Shown here piece by piece: positions 5,787-21,026 of a stretch of 26,390 bases of DNA. The stretch comes from a virus. The notes below the pieces were generated by a model. The model ran no database searches and was not told where the DNA came from. It saw nothing but the letters and a program-made list of their open reading frames with translations. Location: the IMG/VR virus record IMGVR_UViG_3300045135_001872, positions 1-26,390 of that record. The stretch is one strand, 5' to 3'. Positions within the stretch are counted from its first letter, which is position 1. Every line of letters begins with the position of its first letter. The translations under genes and the position numbers were made by a program.

Positions 5787-6417
5787 TCAACTTGGTCAAA
5801 GCTTTATGACACTTAGCCCCAGCATGTGAATTGTCTGGGGCAAAGTTTTTATGTTTTTCACTATCTAGATGATATTCTACATAATCATCTGTTAGTTCAC
5901 TTAAATAAGGTTGTAGATGCTTAAAACAACTGTGGTGTATAACAGGTATTTTAGCACGTTGACACAATATAATTTGTTTTGCTACTGCACCACTCCAAAG
6001 TCGTTTTACTAATTCTTCTTCAGAATAGTATAACATACCTGCCCCGTGCCAAGCTGCTTTGTGTTCAGGAGTCTTTTTTCGGGTGTTGCTTAGTATTTGC
6101 TCAGAGAATATCCAGTTGCGATAGGTTTTACCATACTTCTCAATCCAGTTTGCTACTAAAAAACCTTGTATTTGGTTGCGTCTAAAATCCCAAACTTGCC
6201 ACCTGTATTCACTTGTATGACCGATGATTATCAAATCAGGATTTAGCTTGACAGCTTGCTCAACTTGTGCTGTAATAAGGTATTCCGAAGCGCCACTTTG
6301 AGATAGATTCTTAAGGTCTGCATCTAATAGTTTTGATACTAAATAGGGATATGCTTGATTTTTATTTTCAAGACCTTCACCTTCTGTATAACTGTCACCG
6401 CATGTAATTATGAGCAT
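5758..6417 (-). CDS. SGNH-family hydrolase
   Basis: Encodes 219 aa. Block I is explicit near the N-terminus (CGDSYTEGEG, candidate nucleophile Ser at about residue 9), block II is probably LSQSGASEYL, block III may lie in IIIGHTSEYRW, and block V is APDNSHAG near the C-terminus, giving the catalytic Asp-x-x-His. This is a full SGNH set for a small lone domain. It has no signal peptide. It is the only minus-strand gene in this part of the window. Its start codon overlaps that of a plus-strand SGNH-like gene, and its end overlaps the DsbA-like gene. The substrate is unknown; esterase or O-acetyl-type activity on a glycan is typical for the family. Confidence 0.75.
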   Translation of the reverse strand: MLIITCGDSYTEGEGLENKNQAYPYLVSKLLDADLKNLSQSGASEYLITAQVEQAVKLNPDLIIIGHTSEYRWQVWDFRRNQIQGFLVANWIEKYGKTYRNWIFSEQILSNTRKKTPEHKAAWHGAGMLYYSEEELVKRLWSGAVAKQIILCQRAKIPVIHHSCFKHLQPYLSELTDDYVEYHLDSEKHKNFAPDNSHAGAKCHKALTKLIMNRYQPTL

Positions 6418-7045: not shown

Positions 7046-7533
7046 TAAAATACTGTGAAGAACATGTAACTAGATACGGTCATCAGTGGAGATGTGATTT
7101 TGCAGGTAAGGTAGCCATATTACTAAAACCAGGCGAAGGCTATGAATGGCACTTTGATAATCTTGATTTTACTAACGGTGAATTAAGCGAAGCAAGAAAT
7201 AATAGATACTGGACACATATCATATACTTAACTACAGGTCAGCCTTTTGAAATTGGTTCTTGGAATCCAGACTCTAATAGAGTTTTAGAAACAGACTTCT
7301 CTGCGCCTGAACCTAAAAAGATACTGGCTAGAATATACCCTGAACCTGGTAAGAGCATGATGTTTCCTTGTTTTATGGTTCATAGAATTAAACCAGTAGT
7401 AGACAACCGTAGATGGGCTTTTGTAGATTTTGTTTCTAGTCCTAACTATATGGGAAAAACAAAAGAAGATTTAACTAATATATTTAATAGGTACTTTGAT
7501 GAAGATACTAGGAGTAAGCTCTTATCATCATGA
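6961..7533 (+). CDS. 2-oxoglutarate/Fe(II)-dependent oxygenase, prolyl-4-hydroxylase-like
   Basis: Encodes 190 aa. The iron triad is visible: H64-x-D66 in YEWHFDNLDF and H141 in CFMVHRIKPV, followed by Arg150/151 as the likely 2-oxoglutarate carboxylate contact in DNRRWAFVDF. This is the double-stranded beta-helix signature; such enzymes hydroxylate proteins or small molecules. I chose the ATG at 6961 because GGAG sits 3-6 nt upstream; an in-frame ATG at 6952 lacks this. It overlaps the SGNH-like gene before it and the carbamoyltransferase after it by 35 nt, so they are likely co-translated. Substrate unknown. Confidence 0.82.
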   Translation: MADFIDPEWRDCIEIGFNRKIADTSKRIVKYCEEHVTRYGHQWRCDFAGKVAILLKPGEGYEWHFDNLDFTNGELSEARNNRYWTHIIYLTTGQPFEIGSWNPDSNRVLETDFSAPEPKKILARIYPEPGKSMMFPCFMVHRIKPVVDNRRWAFVDFVSSPNYMGKTKEDLTNIFNRYFDEDTRSKLLSS

Positions 7534-8857
7534 CAGCGCTGCTGTCTCTCTAAAAAATGGTTTTATTGAGGGTGCGTCTCATGAAGAGAGGTTCTCTCGC
7601 GTAAAATTTGATAATAGATTTCCAAAAAATACTGTCGAGTGGTTAAGAGATACGTATGACGACTGGGAGTTTGCTGCTTTTTACGAAAAAGAAACCTACT
7701 CACAATTCAAATCTGACATCCGCAAATATACAACTGCAAAACCTGTACTTGTTGACCACCATGAATCACATGCTATGAGTTCAATTATTTTGACTGATTG
7801 GACTGAATGCGCTATAATGGTTGTAGATACTGTAGGTGGTAAGTTTTCAACATCATTAGGAGCGTATAGAAATGGCAAAATTGAATGGATCAAAAGGTTT
7901 CGTTATCCAAACTCTCTTGGTTTATTTTACTCTAGTGCTACTCGTCTCTTGGGATTTGAACCTCTGGTAGATGAATGCAAGATTATGAGTGCTGCTGCTT
8001 ATGGAGAACCTAAGTGGGAATCACTTATTAAAGATAAGATTTTACACTATGAAGACGGAGACTATCAACTTTTACATAACCTTATGCGTGGAGTTGGAGC
8101 AGGTGCTCTAGATTGGGATATAGCAGCATCAGTACAAAGAACTATTGAAAATATTTTAGTAAACTTAGCTGATTGGCTATATCGAGAAACTGGTTACGAT
8201 AAACTTGCTTATGCGGGTGGCGTTGCATTAAACTGTGTGGCTAATTCTAAAATTGCTAGATATTGCGCATATAACCAAATCGCTATACAACCTGCAGCAG
8301 GAGATGCTGGGTGTGCGCTAGGTGCAGCAGCTTTGATTTCAAGACCTCTGATGCAAACGCCTTTTTTAGGCTATGAATCGACAAACTATGTATCTGCGGA
8401 AGAGGCTGCTCGTAGAATAATTGACGGAGAGATCGTAGCCGTAATTCAAGGGCGTGCTGAGTTTGGACCAAGGGCGTTAGGTAATAGAAGTTGGCTTTGT
8501 ACTCCTACTCAAGCTAATATTGATAAATTGAATGAAATGAAGAAACGCGGTAAAGATTCTTGGCGTCCTTATGCACCGATTGTTCAAAAAGAAGAGGCTG
8601 ATAGGTTTTTTCACTTACATCATCCAAACGAACACATGATGTTTACTGCCGATATTATTGATGGCAATTTCAAAACCCATGACAGTTCAGCCAGAGTTCA
8701 GTTAGTAACTGGTACTAGTAACGCATATTTATGGAAAGTTTTAGAGTATACAAGACAATACGGTTGGCCTGTTCTAATCAATACTAGCTTAAATGCTAGA
8801 GGAAAACCAATAGTCAATTCTCTACAGGATATGAATGAAATACAACTATATAACTGA
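7499..8857 (+). CDS. NodU/CmcH-family O-carbamoyltransferase
   Basis: Encodes 452 aa. The N-terminal Kae1-like domain starts with ILGVSSYHHDSAAVSL and contains the metal-binding HxxxH in DHHESHA (residues 86-92) and a downstream Asp in VVDTVGG (about 110). The C-terminal YrdC-like domain has the carbamoyl-phosphate-binding signature GRAEFGPRALGNRSW and ends near INTSLNARGKPIV. Family members transfer carbamoyl groups to hydroxyls of antibiotics, Nod factors or sugars. Typical length is 500-600 aa; this one is shorter mainly in internal segments and lacks about 20 residues after the final motif. Core motifs are all present, so I treat it as functional. Flanked by two 2OG oxygenases, which suggests a tailoring pathway. 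Confidence 0.88.
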   Translation: MKILGVSSYHHDSAAVSLKNGFIEGASHEERFSRVKFDNRFPKNTVEWLRDTYDDWEFAAFYEKETYSQFKSDIRKYTTAKPVLVDHHESHAMSSIILTDWTECAIMVVDTVGGKFSTSLGAYRNGKIEWIKRFRYPNSLGLFYSSATRLLGFEPLVDECKIMSAAAYGEPKWESLIKDKILHYEDGDYQLLHNLMRGVGAGALDWDIAASVQRTIENILVNLADWLYRETGYDKLAYAGGVALNCVANSKIARYCAYNQIAIQPAAGDAGCALGAAALISRPLMQTPFLGYESTNYVSAEEAARRIIDGEIVAVIQGRAEFGPRALGNRSWLCTPTQANIDKLNEMKKRGKDSWRPYAPIVQKEEADRFFHLHHPNEHMMFTADIIDGNFKTHDSSARVQLVTGTSNAYLWKVLEYTRQYGWPVLINTSLNARGKPIVNSLQDMNEIQLYN

Positions 8858-10590: not shown

Positions 10591-11070
10591 ATGCCTACAT
10601 TTGTATATATGACAGCTTGTGATGGATGTGGACACTGTGTGGATATCTGCCCCTCAGATATTATGCATATTGATCCAGTAACAAGACGAGCAGTAAACAT
10701 TGAACCTAATTTTTGTTGGGAGTGTTATAGCTGTGTAAAAGCCTGTCCACAAAATGCTATCGATGATAGAGGATACTCAGATTTTGCGCCGATGGGTCAC
10801 AAGGTCAGAGTATTACGAGAACCAGAAAAAGGTTTTATTAGTTGGCGACTTAAGTTTAGAGATGGCAGAGAGAAAAACTTTGTTAGTCCTATTCGTACAA
10901 CACCTTGGGGCAGTATACAAGGGCCTGCTGAATATGAGTTACCACCAGAAGGCATGGTTGAAAGTCAAAAACTAGCACACGAGCCAGAGCATCTTAAAGC
11001 AGGTGATTTACGTACTATTACAAAAGACAAGTTTATAAAATATGAGTTGGAGGAACAACATGCCGCCTAG
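10591..11070 (+). CDS. aprB: Adenylylsulfate (APS) reductase beta subunit homologue, 2x[4Fe-4S]
   Basis: Encodes 159 aa. Two four-Cys motifs are complete: C10, C13, C16, C20-P and C42, C45, C48, C52-P. The second has the AprB signature CWECYSCVKACPQ, including the Trp that lies on the electron path in AprB. After the ferredoxin part come the AprB-specific beta segment (ISWRLKFRDGREKNF) and PIRTTPWGS, then a C-terminal tail like the one that wraps around AprA. AprB passes electrons to or from the FAD subunit AprA in APS/sulfite interconversion, in the cytoplasm. No aprA is in this window; the next gene, overlapping by 11 nt, is a Rieske-oxygenase homologue. It may serve host AprA or be an electron donor for that neighbour. 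Confidence 0.85.
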   Translation: MPTFVYMTACDGCGHCVDICPSDIMHIDPVTRRAVNIEPNFCWECYSCVKACPQNAIDDRGYSDFAPMGHKVRVLREPEKGFISWRLKFRDGREKNFVSPIRTTPWGSIQGPAEYELPPEGMVESQKLAHEPEHLKAGDLRTITKDKFIKYELEEQHAA

Positions 11071-12151
11071 AAATCATAAAAATTGGTTGAAACAACCAAA
11101 GGTAGAATATATTAGTAGTGAGATTTACTCATCTTATGAACTTTTTGAACAAGAACAAGAAATGATCTTTTCTAAAGTTTGGGTTCCTATGTGTCATATT
11201 AGTGAGATGAGAAACAAAGGTGACTATCGAACTATTCAAATTGCAGGTAAACGAGTCATTGCAATCAATATTGATGGCGAAAATGTTCAAGCATATTACA
11301 ATACCAACGATATTGACTTTCGTAAACCGGCAGGAACTATTTCATATGATGGTTGGGCGACTACTGAAAACCCACTACACTGTGAAGTAAAATATGGACA
11401 GATGGTTTGGGTAACACTGAATCCAGATCCTATGCCACTTGATACATGGCTAGGCGGTGCATTTGATTGTATTATTGATGCAATTGATACTGAAGAACTA
11501 GAGGTATTCCATTATCATAGAGCAATCATAGATACTAATTATAAACTGTGGCATGATACAAATAGCGAATTTTATCATGATTTTATGCACTACTTCAACC
11601 GTGTGTCAGGATTTAATGATGAATACTTTGCTAGAAAGAATATACCTTTTGATAATGGTCATGTTAATGTTAGCAGTTTTACTGTTAATTATGAAGAATA
11701 TGATGGCTTTGAGGATAGGGGAGAATTATCGTTCCCCAACCTACCACCAAACCAGTGGTACATGGTTGACCTCTTCCCAGGGTATAACTTCAATCTTCGT
11801 GGCAGTGCCTATAGATCCGACATTGTAACTCCTATTGGTCCAAACAAGGTTCTAATTGAATTTCGTGGTTATGGATTGAAAAAGGATACACCAGAAGAAA
11901 GAGCAAGTCGAATTAAAGCACATAACACAATCTGGGGTCCGTTTGGTCGCAATCTACATGAAGATCTAATCGGTGTTGCAGGTCAAGGAACTACTATGAG
12001 AGAAGGCACAGAACGCCGTAATATTCTACACGGTAGGCATGAAAACAGTACTATACATGACGAAGTAGGAATGAGACATTACTACGCTGAGTGGGGTAAG
12101 TTCATGGAAATGAGTCCTTCAAACCCAGTTTATGAAATGGCAGCAGAATGA
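11060..12151 (+). CDS. Rieske-type ring-hydroxylating oxygenase alpha-subunit homologue with a ligand-less Rieske domain
   Basis: Encodes 363 aa. I chose the ATG at 11060: GGAGG lies 6 nt upstream. The N-terminal part follows a Rieske oxygenase (VWVPMCHISEMRNKGDYRT), but where C-x-H and C-x2-H should bind [2Fe-2S] it reads NTNDID (81-86) and ISYDGW (94-99). The four ligand positions become Asn83, Ile85, Ile94 and Asp97, and the interval is about 8 residues short. The catalytic domain keeps the N-W-K-L...E-x2-H spacing (Asn160, Glu170, His173), a second His177 (one residue closer than usual) and an EDLIGVAGQ block that should hold the third iron ligand. So an oxygenase fold with an iron site but no Rieske cluster. 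Coupled to aprB upstream. Confidence 0.8.
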   Translation: MPPRNHKNWLKQPKVEYISSEIYSSYELFEQEQEMIFSKVWVPMCHISEMRNKGDYRTIQIAGKRVIAINIDGENVQAYYNTNDIDFRKPAGTISYDGWATTENPLHCEVKYGQMVWVTLNPDPMPLDTWLGGAFDCIIDAIDTEELEVFHYHRAIIDTNYKLWHDTNSEFYHDFMHYFNRVSGFNDEYFARKNIPFDNGHVNVSSFTVNYEEYDGFEDRGELSFPNLPPNQWYMVDLFPGYNFNLRGSAYRSDIVTPIGPNKVLIEFRGYGLKKDTPEERASRIKAHNTIWGPFGRNLHEDLIGVAGQGTTMREGTERRNILHGRHENSTIHDEVGMRHYYAEWGKFMEMSPSNPVYEMAAE

Positions 12152-12515: not shown

Positions 12516-13241
12516 ATGCCCACTAATAAAACAGTCAAATTTCACTTGATCAAAGCATTTCCTGATCAAATCACTTTGCCTCCTCTAGCATCCAAAAAAC
12601 TTATGCCGCAGTGGTTTAAGAACATACCACAATTTGTAAAGCATAATGATGATGAGATACAATCTGTAAAAAAATGTATTCCTTTTCTAGATGCTATGAC
12701 AGCTGGATGGACACTATTGACACATGTTGATGTCATAATTGAACAAAAAGAAGATGGTGAAGTTACCTTACCATACATAGATGATAAACATAAAGAACTA
12801 ATTAATATTCATAAACCTATTGAAGTTCATCCTTCTGCTCAAGTAAAAGGATCAGCTTTTGAGAATATGACTATTTTAAAGTATATGAGTCCTTGGATTA
12901 TTGAAACTCCTAAAGATTATTCCATGTTATTTTTGCCTTTGATTAATCAACTTGAGAGTCCTGTAATTCCATTGGTTGGTTTGGTAGATTCGGATGAGTA
13001 CACAAACGTAATCAATTTTCCGTTTATACATGTAGAGCTACAACGTGGCGGTAAAGTGTTCATGCCTGCTGGAACTCCTATATGTCAGATGATTCCTGTT
13101 AAGCGGGACAATTGGTCATCAAAAATAACTGTGCTAGACAAACAAGAATTAAAAAAAGCTAAAAAGCAAAGAGAAGTAATGAGCGAAGATAGAACTGATT
13201 ACTATGCTCGTAAACTACATAAAAGGAAAGGATTTAACTAA
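12516..13241 (+). CDS. DUF6065-like phage protein
   Basis: Encodes 241 aa. The stretch KKCIPFLDAMTAGWTLLT, later HPSAQVKGSAFENMTILKY then SPWIIETPKDYSMLFL, and the terminal MPAGTPICQMIPVKRD fit a family of marine-phage proteins I know as DUF6065-like (by eye). The fold looks all-beta (cupin-like or jelly-roll); no metal triad is obvious. The C-terminus is a Lys/Arg-rich helix. One-base overlap with the endolysin gene that follows. Function unknown. Confidence 0.6.
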   Translation: MPTNKTVKFHLIKAFPDQITLPPLASKKLMPQWFKNIPQFVKHNDDEIQSVKKCIPFLDAMTAGWTLLTHVDVIIEQKEDGEVTLPYIDDKHKELINIHKPIEVHPSAQVKGSAFENMTILKYMSPWIIETPKDYSMLFLPLINQLESPVIPLVGLVDSDEYTNVINFPFIHVELQRGGKVFMPAGTPICQMIPVKRDNWSSKITVLDKQELKKAKKQREVMSEDRTDYYARKLHKRKGFN

Positions 13242-13803: not shown

Positions 13804-14634
13804 ATGACGCAACTTATTTCCCCCACTAAATTTACTCACACTGTTGGCCTTTTAAGGTCATTTTTTTTGGACAAAGGTTTCAAAGAAGTACACACCCAAA
13901 ATAGACTTTCTATATTAGCAGCTTGTGAAGATCCGTTTAATGTAGCAACTTATAATTATGCTGGTCAAGTCTGGCCTCTTCCTCAAACTGGTCAAATGTG
14001 GTTAGAACACGAATTACTCTCTCAGCCCAATGAAAAGGGCTTTTTTTGTGTCTCAACTTCGTATAGACAAGAACCTAATGCTATTCCTGGTAGGCATGAT
14101 ATTATCTTCCCAATGTTTGAATTCGAGATGCCTGGTGATATTGTAGACTTAAAAAAGATGGAGTACGAACTCGTAGACTATTTAGGTTTTGATCGTCCAA
14201 TTGAAAAGACCTATGAAGCATGGCAAAAACACTATAAGGTTAATGGAGAACTTGAAGCTGAACATGAGATTGCTATGTATAATGACTTTAGTACTGCGAT
14301 GATTACAGACTTCCCAGAATTTACTTCTCCGTTCTGGAACATGAGCAGATACGAAGATGGAGTACATAGTAAAAAGATTGATGTCATCTTAGGAGGTATG
14401 GAGACTATCGGTTCAGCTGAACGTTCTACGAACGTAGATCAAATGCGCGATACATTCCACACAATCACCGAAGGAGCTTATGCAAACCTACTATATGATT
14501 TGTTTGGCAAAGACAGAGTAGAAGCAGAACTTGAAGAGTTTTTACAGTTTGATTTCTTTCCCCGCGTTGGTGGTGGTATTGGTATGACTCGCATGATTGC
14601 GGCTCTTGACACCCAGCTCTCACTCGCAGCTTAA
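13804..14634 (+). CDS. Class IIb aminoacyl-tRNA synthetase-like catalytic core (Asn/Asp/Lys subclass), no anticodon-binding domain
   Basis: Encodes 276 aa. Class II motifs appear in order: motif 1 near LLRSFFLDKGFKEVHT (17-31), motif 2 with the ATP-binding R88-x-E90 in STSYRQEPN plus a flipping-loop-like GRHD and FEFE, the subclass IIb segment KKIDVILGGMETIGSAERS (190-208; compare AsnRS 'DLLxPGxGEIIGGSxRE'), and motif 3 GGGIGMTRMI with Arg263. The N-terminal OB-fold that reads the anticodon in AsnRS/AspRS/LysRS is missing; those enzymes are 430 aa or longer. Lone cores of this kind are known as AS-AR (archaeal asparagine synthetase) and EpmA/PoxA. It could charge the adjacent tRNA, make asparagine, or modify a protein. 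Only 7 nt separate its stop from the tRNA gene. Confidence 0.8.
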   Translation: MTQLISPTKFTHTVGLLRSFFLDKGFKEVHTQNRLSILAACEDPFNVATYNYAGQVWPLPQTGQMWLEHELLSQPNEKGFFCVSTSYRQEPNAIPGRHDIIFPMFEFEMPGDIVDLKKMEYELVDYLGFDRPIEKTYEAWQKHYKVNGELEAEHEIAMYNDFSTAMITDFPEFTSPFWNMSRYEDGVHSKKIDVILGGMETIGSAERSTNVDQMRDTFHTITEGAYANLLYDLFGKDRVEAELEEFLQFDFFPRVGGGIGMTRMIAALDTQLSLAA

Positions 14635-14641
14635 AAATTTT

Positions 14642-14726
14642 TGTGGGGTGGTGAAACTGGTAGACACGCACGACTGTTTCTCGTGTGCCGAAAGGCGTGA
14701 TGGTTCGACTCCATCTCCCACAGCCA
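14642..14726 (+). tRNA. tRNA with class II (leucine-type) body, Asn anticodon GUU and encoded CCA
   Basis: 85 nt, folded by hand. Acceptor TGTGGGG/TCCCACA (7 bp, one G-U); 3-bp D-stem GTG/CAC with GG in the loop; anticodon stem CACGA/TCGTG with 7-nt loop CTGTTTC, anticodon GUU at 14676-14678; 13-nt variable arm with stem GCC-GAAA-GGC; T-arm GATGG-TTCGACT-CCATC; discriminator G; CCA encoded at 14724-14726. The D-arm (GGTGAAACTGGTAGACAC) and long variable arm are those of tRNA-Leu, yet the anticodon is that of Asn, whose tRNAs have a short variable loop. Discriminator G fits Asn/Asp/Ser rather than bacterial Leu (A). Position 37 is U, very unusual since it is nearly always a purine. Probably co-transcribed with the synthetase-like gene. 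Confidence 0.85.
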
Positions 14727-14773: not shown

Positions 14774-14805
14774 AAAATAAGAGGTCACTTGACCTCTTAT
14801 TTTTT
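14774..14805 (+). terminator. Strong intrinsic terminator overlapping the permease transcription start
   Basis: A near-perfect inverted repeat with GAGGTCA and TGACCTC at its core, extendable with flanking A/T pairs to about 14 bp, ending in a run of T. It ends the synthetase-tRNA transcript. The 5' arm starts just after the permease -10, so the permease message would begin inside the stem and escape it. Confidence 0.75.
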
Positions 14806-19952: not shown

Positions 19953-21026
19953 ATGGAATATTTCAATCAAAACCAAACCGATTGGCGCATATCACAGTGC
20001 TGTCAATGGCATGATAAAACATTAGCAAAGAGGTACAACTTTGGAACAACCACCAAGACCTATGCTCTTAAAGATGGCGGGAAAGAACGGGTTCAGGGCA
20101 AGGCTCTTGAAAACTGTCGTAAACTGCTTGACATACTTACAACTTATTTTCCTGACCAACCTATGTCTTTACGCAGCTTTCGTATCAGCTCTGAGCTATT
20201 CCCTTGCTACACGTTGGACTTTACTCGTGACTGGTACAAAGAAATTTGGGAGGACATTGAAACTATACTGGCTCAAGCTGGAGAGGCAGCAAAACGACAT
20301 GCTGTTCGTTTATCTGTCCATCCTGGTCAGTATACTGTTCTTGCTTCTAATAAACCTGACGTTGTAGAAAAATCTATTGAAGATCTTGAATATCATGCAC
20401 TGTATGGTTCATTGATGGGCCTTCCTGCTCAAGATTTTTCTATGAATATTCACTTACAAGGACTCTACGGAGGTAAACATGAAGACGGTATTAAACGATT
20501 CGCCACTCACTTTCCCTACCTTTCAGACTACGCCCAAGGTTGTTTATCCGTTGAAAACGAAGATAAACCCAACGGATATGACATCAAGCACACACTTGAA
20601 CTTGCCCAACGGATCCCTATCCGCTGCACCCTCGACACACACCACTATGCCTGCCATAGAATGGTTGAGACTGAGAGAGTTAAGGTGGGCGAGAAAACGG
20701 TCAATCGGAAAGTGCGAGACGTGGATCATATCACCCACACGCATGAGTACTTCCGTGAAGCTGTCAAGTCTTGGAGAGGCGTACGCCCACTCTTCCACAA
20801 ATCCCAGTCATTCCCCCCAGATATTTCAGATTACTGGATGAAACCTAATGCACACTCTGAAACTTATTGGGATGAAGAATTGATGGCTAATCATGTTCCT
20901 ATGCTTGAATATGCAGATTTTGATATTGAAGCAAAATTTAAAGAGGTAGCTGTGCAAGGATTTTACAAGTTTATCAAAGATGAAGAAAATTTTAGCGGTG
21001 AAAATGTAATTACTAAAAGATTATAA
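19953..21026 (+). CDS. uvsE: UV damage endonuclease UvdE
   Basis: Encodes 357 aa, within the family's usual 300-400. The TIM-barrel metal ligands and motifs are in place: SSELFP, RLSVHPGQYTVLAS, MNIHLQG, SVENEDKPN, CTLDTHHY, PLFHKSQS, NAHSETYWD and the final DIEAKFKEVAV. UvdE nicks DNA 5' of UV photoproducts and abasic sites, starting an excision repair route independent of UvrABC, useful for virions in sunlit water. It has its own promoter. Base composition in the middle (about 20440-20830) is clearly richer in G+C than the genes on either side, which suggests a separate origin. The promoter and hairpin of the next unit follow closely. Confidence 0.9.
   Translation: MEYFNQNQTDWRISQCCQWHDKTLAKRYNFGTTTKTYALKDGGKERVQGKALENCRKLLDILTTYFPDQPMSLRSFRISSELFPCYTLDFTRDWYKEIWEDIETILAQAGEAAKRHAVRLSVHPGQYTVLASNKPDVVEKSIEDLEYHALYGSLMGLPAQDFSMNIHLQGLYGGKHEDGIKRFATHFPYLSDYAQGCLSVENEDKPNGYDIKHTLELAQRIPIRCTLDTHHYACHRMVETERVKVGEKTVNRKVRDVDHITHTHEYFREAVKSWRGVRPLFHKSQSFPPDISDYWMKPNAHSETYWDEELMANHVPMLEYADFDIEAKFKEVAVQGFYKFIKDEENFSGENVITKRL

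Follow-up and report, generated by a model that had tools for sequence, protein, structure and literature searches.

tRNAs in phages, synthetases in viruses, and synthetase cores that stand alone are all known already, and several described systems resemble parts of the locus analyzed here. Asparagine identity in bacteria depends on the anticodon and G73 (PMC9976931). SerRS and tRNA-Ser are alike in principle to the arrangement considered below, with anticodon-independent charging of a class II tRNA carrying G73 (PMC9976931). In the accessible part of a 2010 study of cyanophages (PMC3037559), a 'tRNA ligase' is listed for only two of 16 cyanophages, P-SSM2 and P-SSM7 (Table 3), the 252-kb genome of P-SSM2 has one tRNA in all (Table 1), and the ligase and tRNA counts are given without being linked to each other. 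Among the literature matches listed, which barely covered a pyrimidine role, there was no paper on the enzyme–tRNA pair and none on a class II tRNA with asparagine signals coupled to an AsnRS-type core of its own. To our knowledge, a class II tRNA-Asn is known from no cell.

The window (the whole 26,390-nt stretch of viral DNA analyzed here) encodes a tRNA that shares the GUU anticodon, G73, and U1-A72 with bacterial tRNA-Asn, U1-A72 being present in E. coli tRNA-Asn, but differs from it in a long class II variable arm, a Leu-type D arm, and a pyrimidine at position 37. With tRNA-Leu, which provided the nearest matches, it has in common the class II body, the D-loop sequence, and the ends of the variable arm, whereas its anticodon, G73 instead of A73, U1-A72, and U37 are its own. 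The likeness to the serine system is limited, since SerRS belongs to another class II subclass and the variable arm end of the window tRNA is of the Leu type. An earlier note on this DNA had called the gene a chimeric tRNA. That term undersells it, as the window tRNA is a member of a widespread ocean-phage family with a near-obligate enzyme neighbor.

The tRNA gene of the window

ARAGORN found one tRNA gene in the 26,390-nt window, at positions 14,642–14,726 on the plus strand with anticodon gtt. In a local scan, the Rfam tRNA model RF00005 matched positions 14,642–14,723 with 42.8 bits (gathering score, 29); the gene was absent from the default Rfam scan of the whole window with speed filters. 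The tRNA body (14,642–14,723) has a Leu-type class II fold and is followed by an encoded CCA end (14,724–14,726). Hand folding gave an acceptor stem of seven pairs including U1-A72 (TGTGGGG/TCCCACA), a D arm with a three-pair stem and a Leu-like D loop (GTG-AAACTGGTAGA-CAC), an anticodon arm with a five-pair stem and the loop CUGUUUC (CACGA-CTGTTTC-TCGTG), and a standard T arm (GATGG-TTCGACT-CCATC). The variable arm (14,686–14,698; TGCCGAAAGGCGT) comprises 13 nt, with a three-pair GCC/GGC stem and a GAAA loop. The anticodon (G34, U35, and U36) lies at 14,676–14,678, the exceptional pyrimidine U37 at 14,679, and the discriminator G at 14,723. On everything that the sequence itself can show, the hand description in the earlier note (arms, GUU, G73, U37, and CCA) was right, and its combination of a Leu-type class II body with an Asn anticodon and a G discriminator was confirmed by ARAGORN, by reading of the sequence, and by the relatives described below.

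The MFE of the window tRNA was no better than that of shuffled sequence (z −0.77); folding energy is therefore uninformative here, and support for the tRNA fold is comparative. Downstream of the gene, a 13-bp hairpin followed by a U run (14,774–14,803, plus strand; −16.4 kcal/mol, z −6.79) is likely the terminator behind the tRNA; the hairpin was not among the elements listed by the consensus scan. Elsewhere in the window, a carbamoyltransferase (7,496–8,857), a ring-hydroxylating oxygenase (11,042–12,151), a DUF6065 protein (12,516–13,241), and a UvdE-type endonuclease (19,953–21,026) are encoded.

Conservation of the tRNA family in phages

Viral relatives of the locus were fetched with the upstream enzyme as the query, the best 80 of at least 597 enzyme loci were kept, and a class II tRNA was sought within 420 nt downstream of the enzyme with the anticodon unconstrained. 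All 76 viral tRNAs obtained from these 80 loci had GTT, T1-A72, and G73, and U33 was kept in 74 of them. The T loop and the GG of the D loop were kept in the viral relatives as in elongator tRNAs, and, of 61 distinct relatives, 40 had an encoded CCA end and 21 did not.

An alignment of 26 short-arm relatives had standard pairs in 99.7% of the paired cells, and 16 of the 23 pairs, including two of the three variable-arm pairs, showed changes on both sides. Covariation spanned all five stems, the variable arm included. When the partner was slid by one to three columns as a control, pairing dropped to 39–60%. The structure of the family is under selection. A pseudo-tRNA with broken or unconserved stems, which the earlier note had named as refuting its claim of an intact gene, is refuted by this covariation, and the RF00005 score of the window gene agrees with an intact tRNA. 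The other refuting outcome that it had named, a different anticodon in another fold, corresponded to the ARAGORN readings of relatives whose arms were very long, namely Glu-ctc, Asp-atc, Ile-aat, and a four-base anticodon with no assignment; these were miscalls, and the hand structures of the relatives placed GUU.

Variable arms in the family ranged from 11 to 38 nt, outside the short class I loop of tRNA-Asn, and ended in TG..CGT or TG..CTT, a pattern that, by comparison with E. coli, we take to be Leu-type and not Ser-type. Arms of 27–38 nt were present in long-arm members (L010, L019, L023, L027, L041, and others), and most of these arms had GCAA at the apex and a UAUUUA strand. Long and short (11–21 nt) arms interchanged approximately 15 times on the enzyme tree, and at least six of these interchanges were forced; the variable-arm tip is therefore not a fixed recognition element. 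The same interchanges weaken the idea that the tip serves the enzyme as a SerRS-like recognition signal.

The model R1, built from the relatives, matched two loci that ARAGORN had missed (L066 and L070) end to end, although matches of R1 to its own members are expected by construction. These two tRNAs (L066:2927–3024 and L070:3851–3948) have the anticodon loop CCGTTTA, in which position 33, invariant elsewhere, is C. A related GUU tRNA at L155:4077–4170 has mismatched U1-C72 and C2-C71 and the discriminator A. ARAGORN also called tmRNA* genes near the pair, one directly behind it (L018:3933–4278) and one at L067:1097–1478.

At position 37, 111 loci with distinct enzymes had T in 91 cases, A in 15, and C in 5. 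By comparison, the same viral loci had 65 further distinct tRNAs, of which 64 carried a purine, the sole pyrimidine exception (L024) being a miscalled member of the window tRNA family; at the cellular loci, all 58 of the other distinct tRNAs had a purine. The pyrimidine, which the earlier note had singled out as exceptional, is a property of the family and is not specific to the window; a sequencing error or a single mutation is ruled out by these counts and by the purines of the neighboring tRNAs. A pyrimidine at position 37 should weaken decoding, and it rules out t6A37.

Linkage of the tRNA to the upstream enzyme

The stop codon of the upstream enzyme gene lies 7 nt before the start of the tRNA at 14,642. 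The tRNA stood directly behind the enzyme in 76 of the 80 viral loci (the best 80 of at least 597); three of the exceptions had no tRNA (L058, L059, and L077), and one was cut by the contig end (L007). In the reverse direction, a tRNA-only pattern that fixed GTT and U33, and is thus silent on other anticodons, retrieved at least 80 loci on viral contigs. In 75 of the 80 tRNA-pattern loci listed, the enzyme was located −2 to 237 nt upstream, mostly 7–26 nt, with 58–94% identity to the enzyme of the window, and in the other five the pattern was preceded by no more than 132 nt, too short for judging the enzyme. All 75 loci with room upstream therefore had the enzyme, and the tRNA never occurred without it among the matches listed. 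The locus sets of the enzyme search and the tRNA pattern have contigs in common; parsing of the CCA end and the variable arm covered 78 of the 80 tRNA-pattern loci. Comparison with related phages, proposed in the earlier note, thus revealed the same type of tRNA behind the enzyme in dozens of phages and reinforced its suggestion of the neighbor as the likely partner, which has the strongest backing of all points in its interpretation.

A stand-alone synthetase core

The partner gene (13,804–14,634, plus strand) encodes a 276-aa class II synthetase catalytic core of the AsnRS/AspRS type, as identified by Pfam PF00152 (tRNA synthetase class II (D, K, N); 7.1e-15), by phrog_29758, a PHROG without assigned function, and by structural prediction. 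Searches of NCBIfam and PDB sequences gave weak matches to AspRS, AsnRS, LysRS, and asparagine synthetase A alone. The AlphaFold2 model, based on 70 aligned sequences, had a mean pLDDT of 92.9 and a pTM of 0.90. Its best fold match was human AsnRS (Z 26.2; 250 residues; 2.7 Å; AsnRS with Asn-AMP), followed by AspRS (Z 25.2), archaeal asparagine synthetase A (Z 23.4), and EpmA/GenX (Z 23.2), where differences in Z of less than 1 are ties. The model aligned to residues 230–532 of human AsnRS and 115–422 of T. thermophilus AsnRS, and the anticodon-binding domain is therefore missing from the enzyme.

The enzyme shares with AsnRS the class IIb catalytic core, the arginines of motifs 2 and 3, and an AsnRS-like QxxLE motif, but lacks the N-terminal anticodon-binding domain and has approximately 20% identity, and TIGR00457 (AsnRS) was not among its NCBIfam matches. 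In motifs 2 and 3, R88/E90 and R263 were invariant in the 70 sequences, in which phage and cellular enzymes had 61 invariant positions in common. The enzyme has QTGQMWLE where AsnRS has QSSQLYLE and AspRS has QSPQLYK; from the known AspRS and AsnRS sites, we infer that this motif may favor asparagine as the substrate.

Two stand-alone cores are also comparable. Archaeal asparagine synthetase A is an AsnRS-like protein of similar length (PDB ID: 3p8t and 3rex); however, the enzyme scored 21.2 bits against its model NF005055, far below the cut-off of 389. EpmA/GenX, a LysRS core that modifies EF-P, is likewise a class II core without an anticodon domain, but has no tRNA partner. It is lysine-specific and acts on protein. 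We know of no tRNA partner for archaeal asparagine synthetase A.

A putative asparagine-charging module

A selected tRNA structure, invariant asparagine signals, and near-strict linkage to a protein with a synthetase fold and class II motifs were observed at these loci. Tentatively, we favor a reading of the sequences in which the enzyme and the tRNA would form one phage module, expressed from a common transcript, and we consider it plausible though far from assured. The upstream gene would produce a minimal AsnRS-type synthetase without an anticodon-binding domain, which would activate asparagine with ATP and charge the tRNA encoded directly behind its own gene. Rather than the anticodon, the enzyme would recognize mainly the acceptor end (U1-A72 and G73) together with the class II core, and the charged tRNA would be used by the ribosome to decode the Asn codons AAU and AAC in infection, separately from the tRNA-Asn and synthetase of the host. 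The invariance of GUU despite an enzyme without an anticodon domain would be explained by decoding, and equally by charging by the host AsnRS.

The weak points of the charging reading are the pyrimidine at position 37, the cellular relatives without the tRNA, and the pyrimidine genes that neighbor the enzyme; two serious rivals therefore remain, namely a pyrimidine function in which the tRNA is a partner, and a metabolic enzyme with a host-charged tRNA next to it. If the charging model is true, a minimal synthetase with a class II tRNA-Asn of its own occurs naturally in abundant phages of the ocean. The pair would then be a test case for an AsnRS working without anticodon reading and for a ribosome tolerating a pyrimidine at position 37, and might serve as an orthogonal pair in the laboratory.

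Cellular homologues and pyrimidine gene context

Scanning of 84,980 species genomes with the enzyme yielded 129 relatives, of which 80 were kept, from Patescibacteria, Bacteroidota, Rickettsiales, Pasteurella atlantica, and others. These relatives had 52–64% identity to the enzyme and the same core residues. No such tRNA was present within 420 nt in 75 of the 80 genome-bin loci kept, and the five loci with the tRNA (L086, L087, L088, L092, and L155) were regarded as phage contigs within the bins. On a quick tree with open forks, which covered 62 rows, the tRNA-bearing rows formed a marine phage clade (with a few members without the tRNA) and a small branch of L092 and L155, with five changes. 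Among the 50 best-listed R1 matches in enzyme-bearing records (30 loci and 20 stretches), a class II GUU tRNA was absent; these matches were mostly Leu, with Tyr, Ser, Phe, and Gln, and one record (W02) has an ordinary 74-nt tRNA-Asn.

Twelve enzyme-bearing records (10 cellular genomes and two large phages) were searched for other asparagine systems, and AsnRS exceeded the cut-off in five, GatB in four, AsnB-type synthetases in eight, and AsnA in three. These counts weaken the idea that the enzyme is the only supplier of asparagine or the only AsnRS of the cell, and the coexistence of the cellular homologue with AsnRS in five of the 12 records counts against the charging reading.

Of 77 genome-bin loci, 18 had a gene for PyrD, PyrE, or PyrF no more than 3 kb from the enzyme, as counted with Pasteurella pyr ORFs that had been read by eye and used as queries. 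The homologue stood beside pyrD, pyrE, or pyrF in L131, L128, L102, L134, L146, L097, L106, and others, as well as in the phage loci L025, L031, L050, L087, and L092. Pfam identified OMP decarboxylase or dihydroorotate dehydrogenase neighbors in Bandiella, Rhodospirillaceae, Aureispira, and Chitinophagales, and the gene order was enzyme-pyrF-pyrE-pyrD in Bandiella and Rhodospirillaceae. PyrB and PyrC (either model) exceeded the curated cut-offs in none of 16 enzyme-bearing genomes, several of which are drafts, whereas PyrB was detected in all 14 control genomes.

These data raise another possible function, in which the enzyme would make dihydroorotate or another PyrD substrate from asparagine (e.g., from Asn, bicarbonate, and ATP), replacing PyrB and PyrC, and the phage tRNA would be a dedicated partner (an Asn carrier, cofactor, or regulator) instead of a decoder. 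The residues common to the phage and cellular enzymes and the relaxed position 37, which fits a non-decoding tRNA, agree with this proposal, as does the phage gene context. Homologues of pyrD or pyrE were found in 14 of 165 phage-type loci with the enzyme, and pyrD, the enzyme, the tRNA, and a pyrE-like gene followed one another on one strand in L025, L031, and L050.

Nevertheless, the pyrimidine function appears somewhat unlikely to us. The chemistry itself is conjectural, and the reaction would not need a tRNA if cellular copies perform it without one. The absence of PyrB is not specific to the enzyme in Pasteurellaceae, the one family to which the matched control was confined: PyrB exceeded the cut-off in none of 121 genomes of this family, although the enzyme was present in just three of them. 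Three of the 16 enzyme-bearing genomes had PyrC-model hits of 202–261 bits, below the cut-off of 279. The PyrE-like phage proteins passed no Pfam cut-off and were named by similarity to Pasteurella and Bandiella PRTases, and P-SSM2 and P-SSM7 had no match to these phage PyrD and PyrE proteins. The invariance of GUU would also be unexplained unless a host enzyme reads the anticodon. If the pyrimidine model is true, an unrecognized route to dihydroorotate exists in organisms with pyrD, pyrE, and pyrF but without PyrB and PyrC; the context of the cellular homologues may possibly reflect such a route from asparagine. The suggestion of the earlier note that the tRNA might not be used in translation gains weight from this gene context.

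Charging by host enzymes and other alternatives

In the second rival, the two genes would form a cassette in which the enzyme has a metabolic role and charging of the tRNA is left to the asparagine system of the host (AsnRS, or ND-AspRS with GatCAB), for example to supply Asn-tRNA while the enzyme uses asparagine. U1-A72 has a role as an amidotransferase signal for tRNA-Asn. Its role as such a signal for tRNA-Gln is described in PMC9976931, bacterial AsnRS reads GUU and G73, both invariant here, and an anticodon domain is lacking from the enzyme. However, a tRNA charged by the host should also occur alone, whereas this tRNA was accompanied by the enzyme at every one of the 75 informative loci among the matches listed, and the class II body and U37 would be unexplained. 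We therefore regard such a cassette as unlikely.

The pyrimidine and tRNA functions could also be joined in a tRNA-dependent pyrimidine step, in which the AsnRS-like core and a non-decoding Asn-type tRNA would turn asparagine into a substrate of PyrD, and the cellular enzyme would use an ordinary tRNA-Asn or none, replacing PyrB and PyrC. We hold this combination to be rather doubtful.

Charging by a host enzyme with serine or leucine, which would place these residues at Asn codons, is highly improbable. The best matches of the tRNA body among the tRNAs fetched, a sample enriched in Leu by the search, were tRNA-Leu with at most 74% identity, and a change from A73 to G73 can switch Leu to Ser identity (PMC9976931). 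Against this, Leu identity in E. coli depends crucially on A73 (PMC9976931), the variable arm ends follow the pattern of tRNA-Leu and not that of tRNA-Ser, and the linkage to the enzyme would be unexplained. Leucine recoding of Asn codons, raised in the earlier note, is unlikely, and the invariance of G73 and U1-A72 in 76 of 76 tRNAs from the best 80 of at least 597 loci rules it out as the leading idea. A decayed or chance tRNA-like sequence, with which the ordinary MFE would be compatible, can safely be dismissed given the two-sided changes in 16 of 23 pairs, the nearly complete pairing, and the presence of the same locus in dozens of phages.

The pair in isolated cyanophages

The isolates P-SSM7 and P-SSM2 carry the enzyme–tRNA pair, and P-SSM5 has the enzyme. 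In P-SSM7, the pair is located directly behind a tRNA-Ile/Arg/Leu cluster and next to the major head gene, which suggests decoding of Asn codons in infection; both genes of the pair are already annotated in its public record. The P-SSM2 locus yielded a single tRNA, which is a member of the window tRNA family. These isolated phages, together with simple in vitro assays, make both the charging reading and the pyrimidine function directly testable. In the P-SSM2 record (NC_006883.2), tRNA-Asn PSSM2_199 is annotated at 5,825–5,910, approximately 2 kb from the tRNA found here (L083:3814–3899). The latter lies directly behind the tRNA ligase gene, and the locus tag PSSM2_199 falls between 198 and 200.
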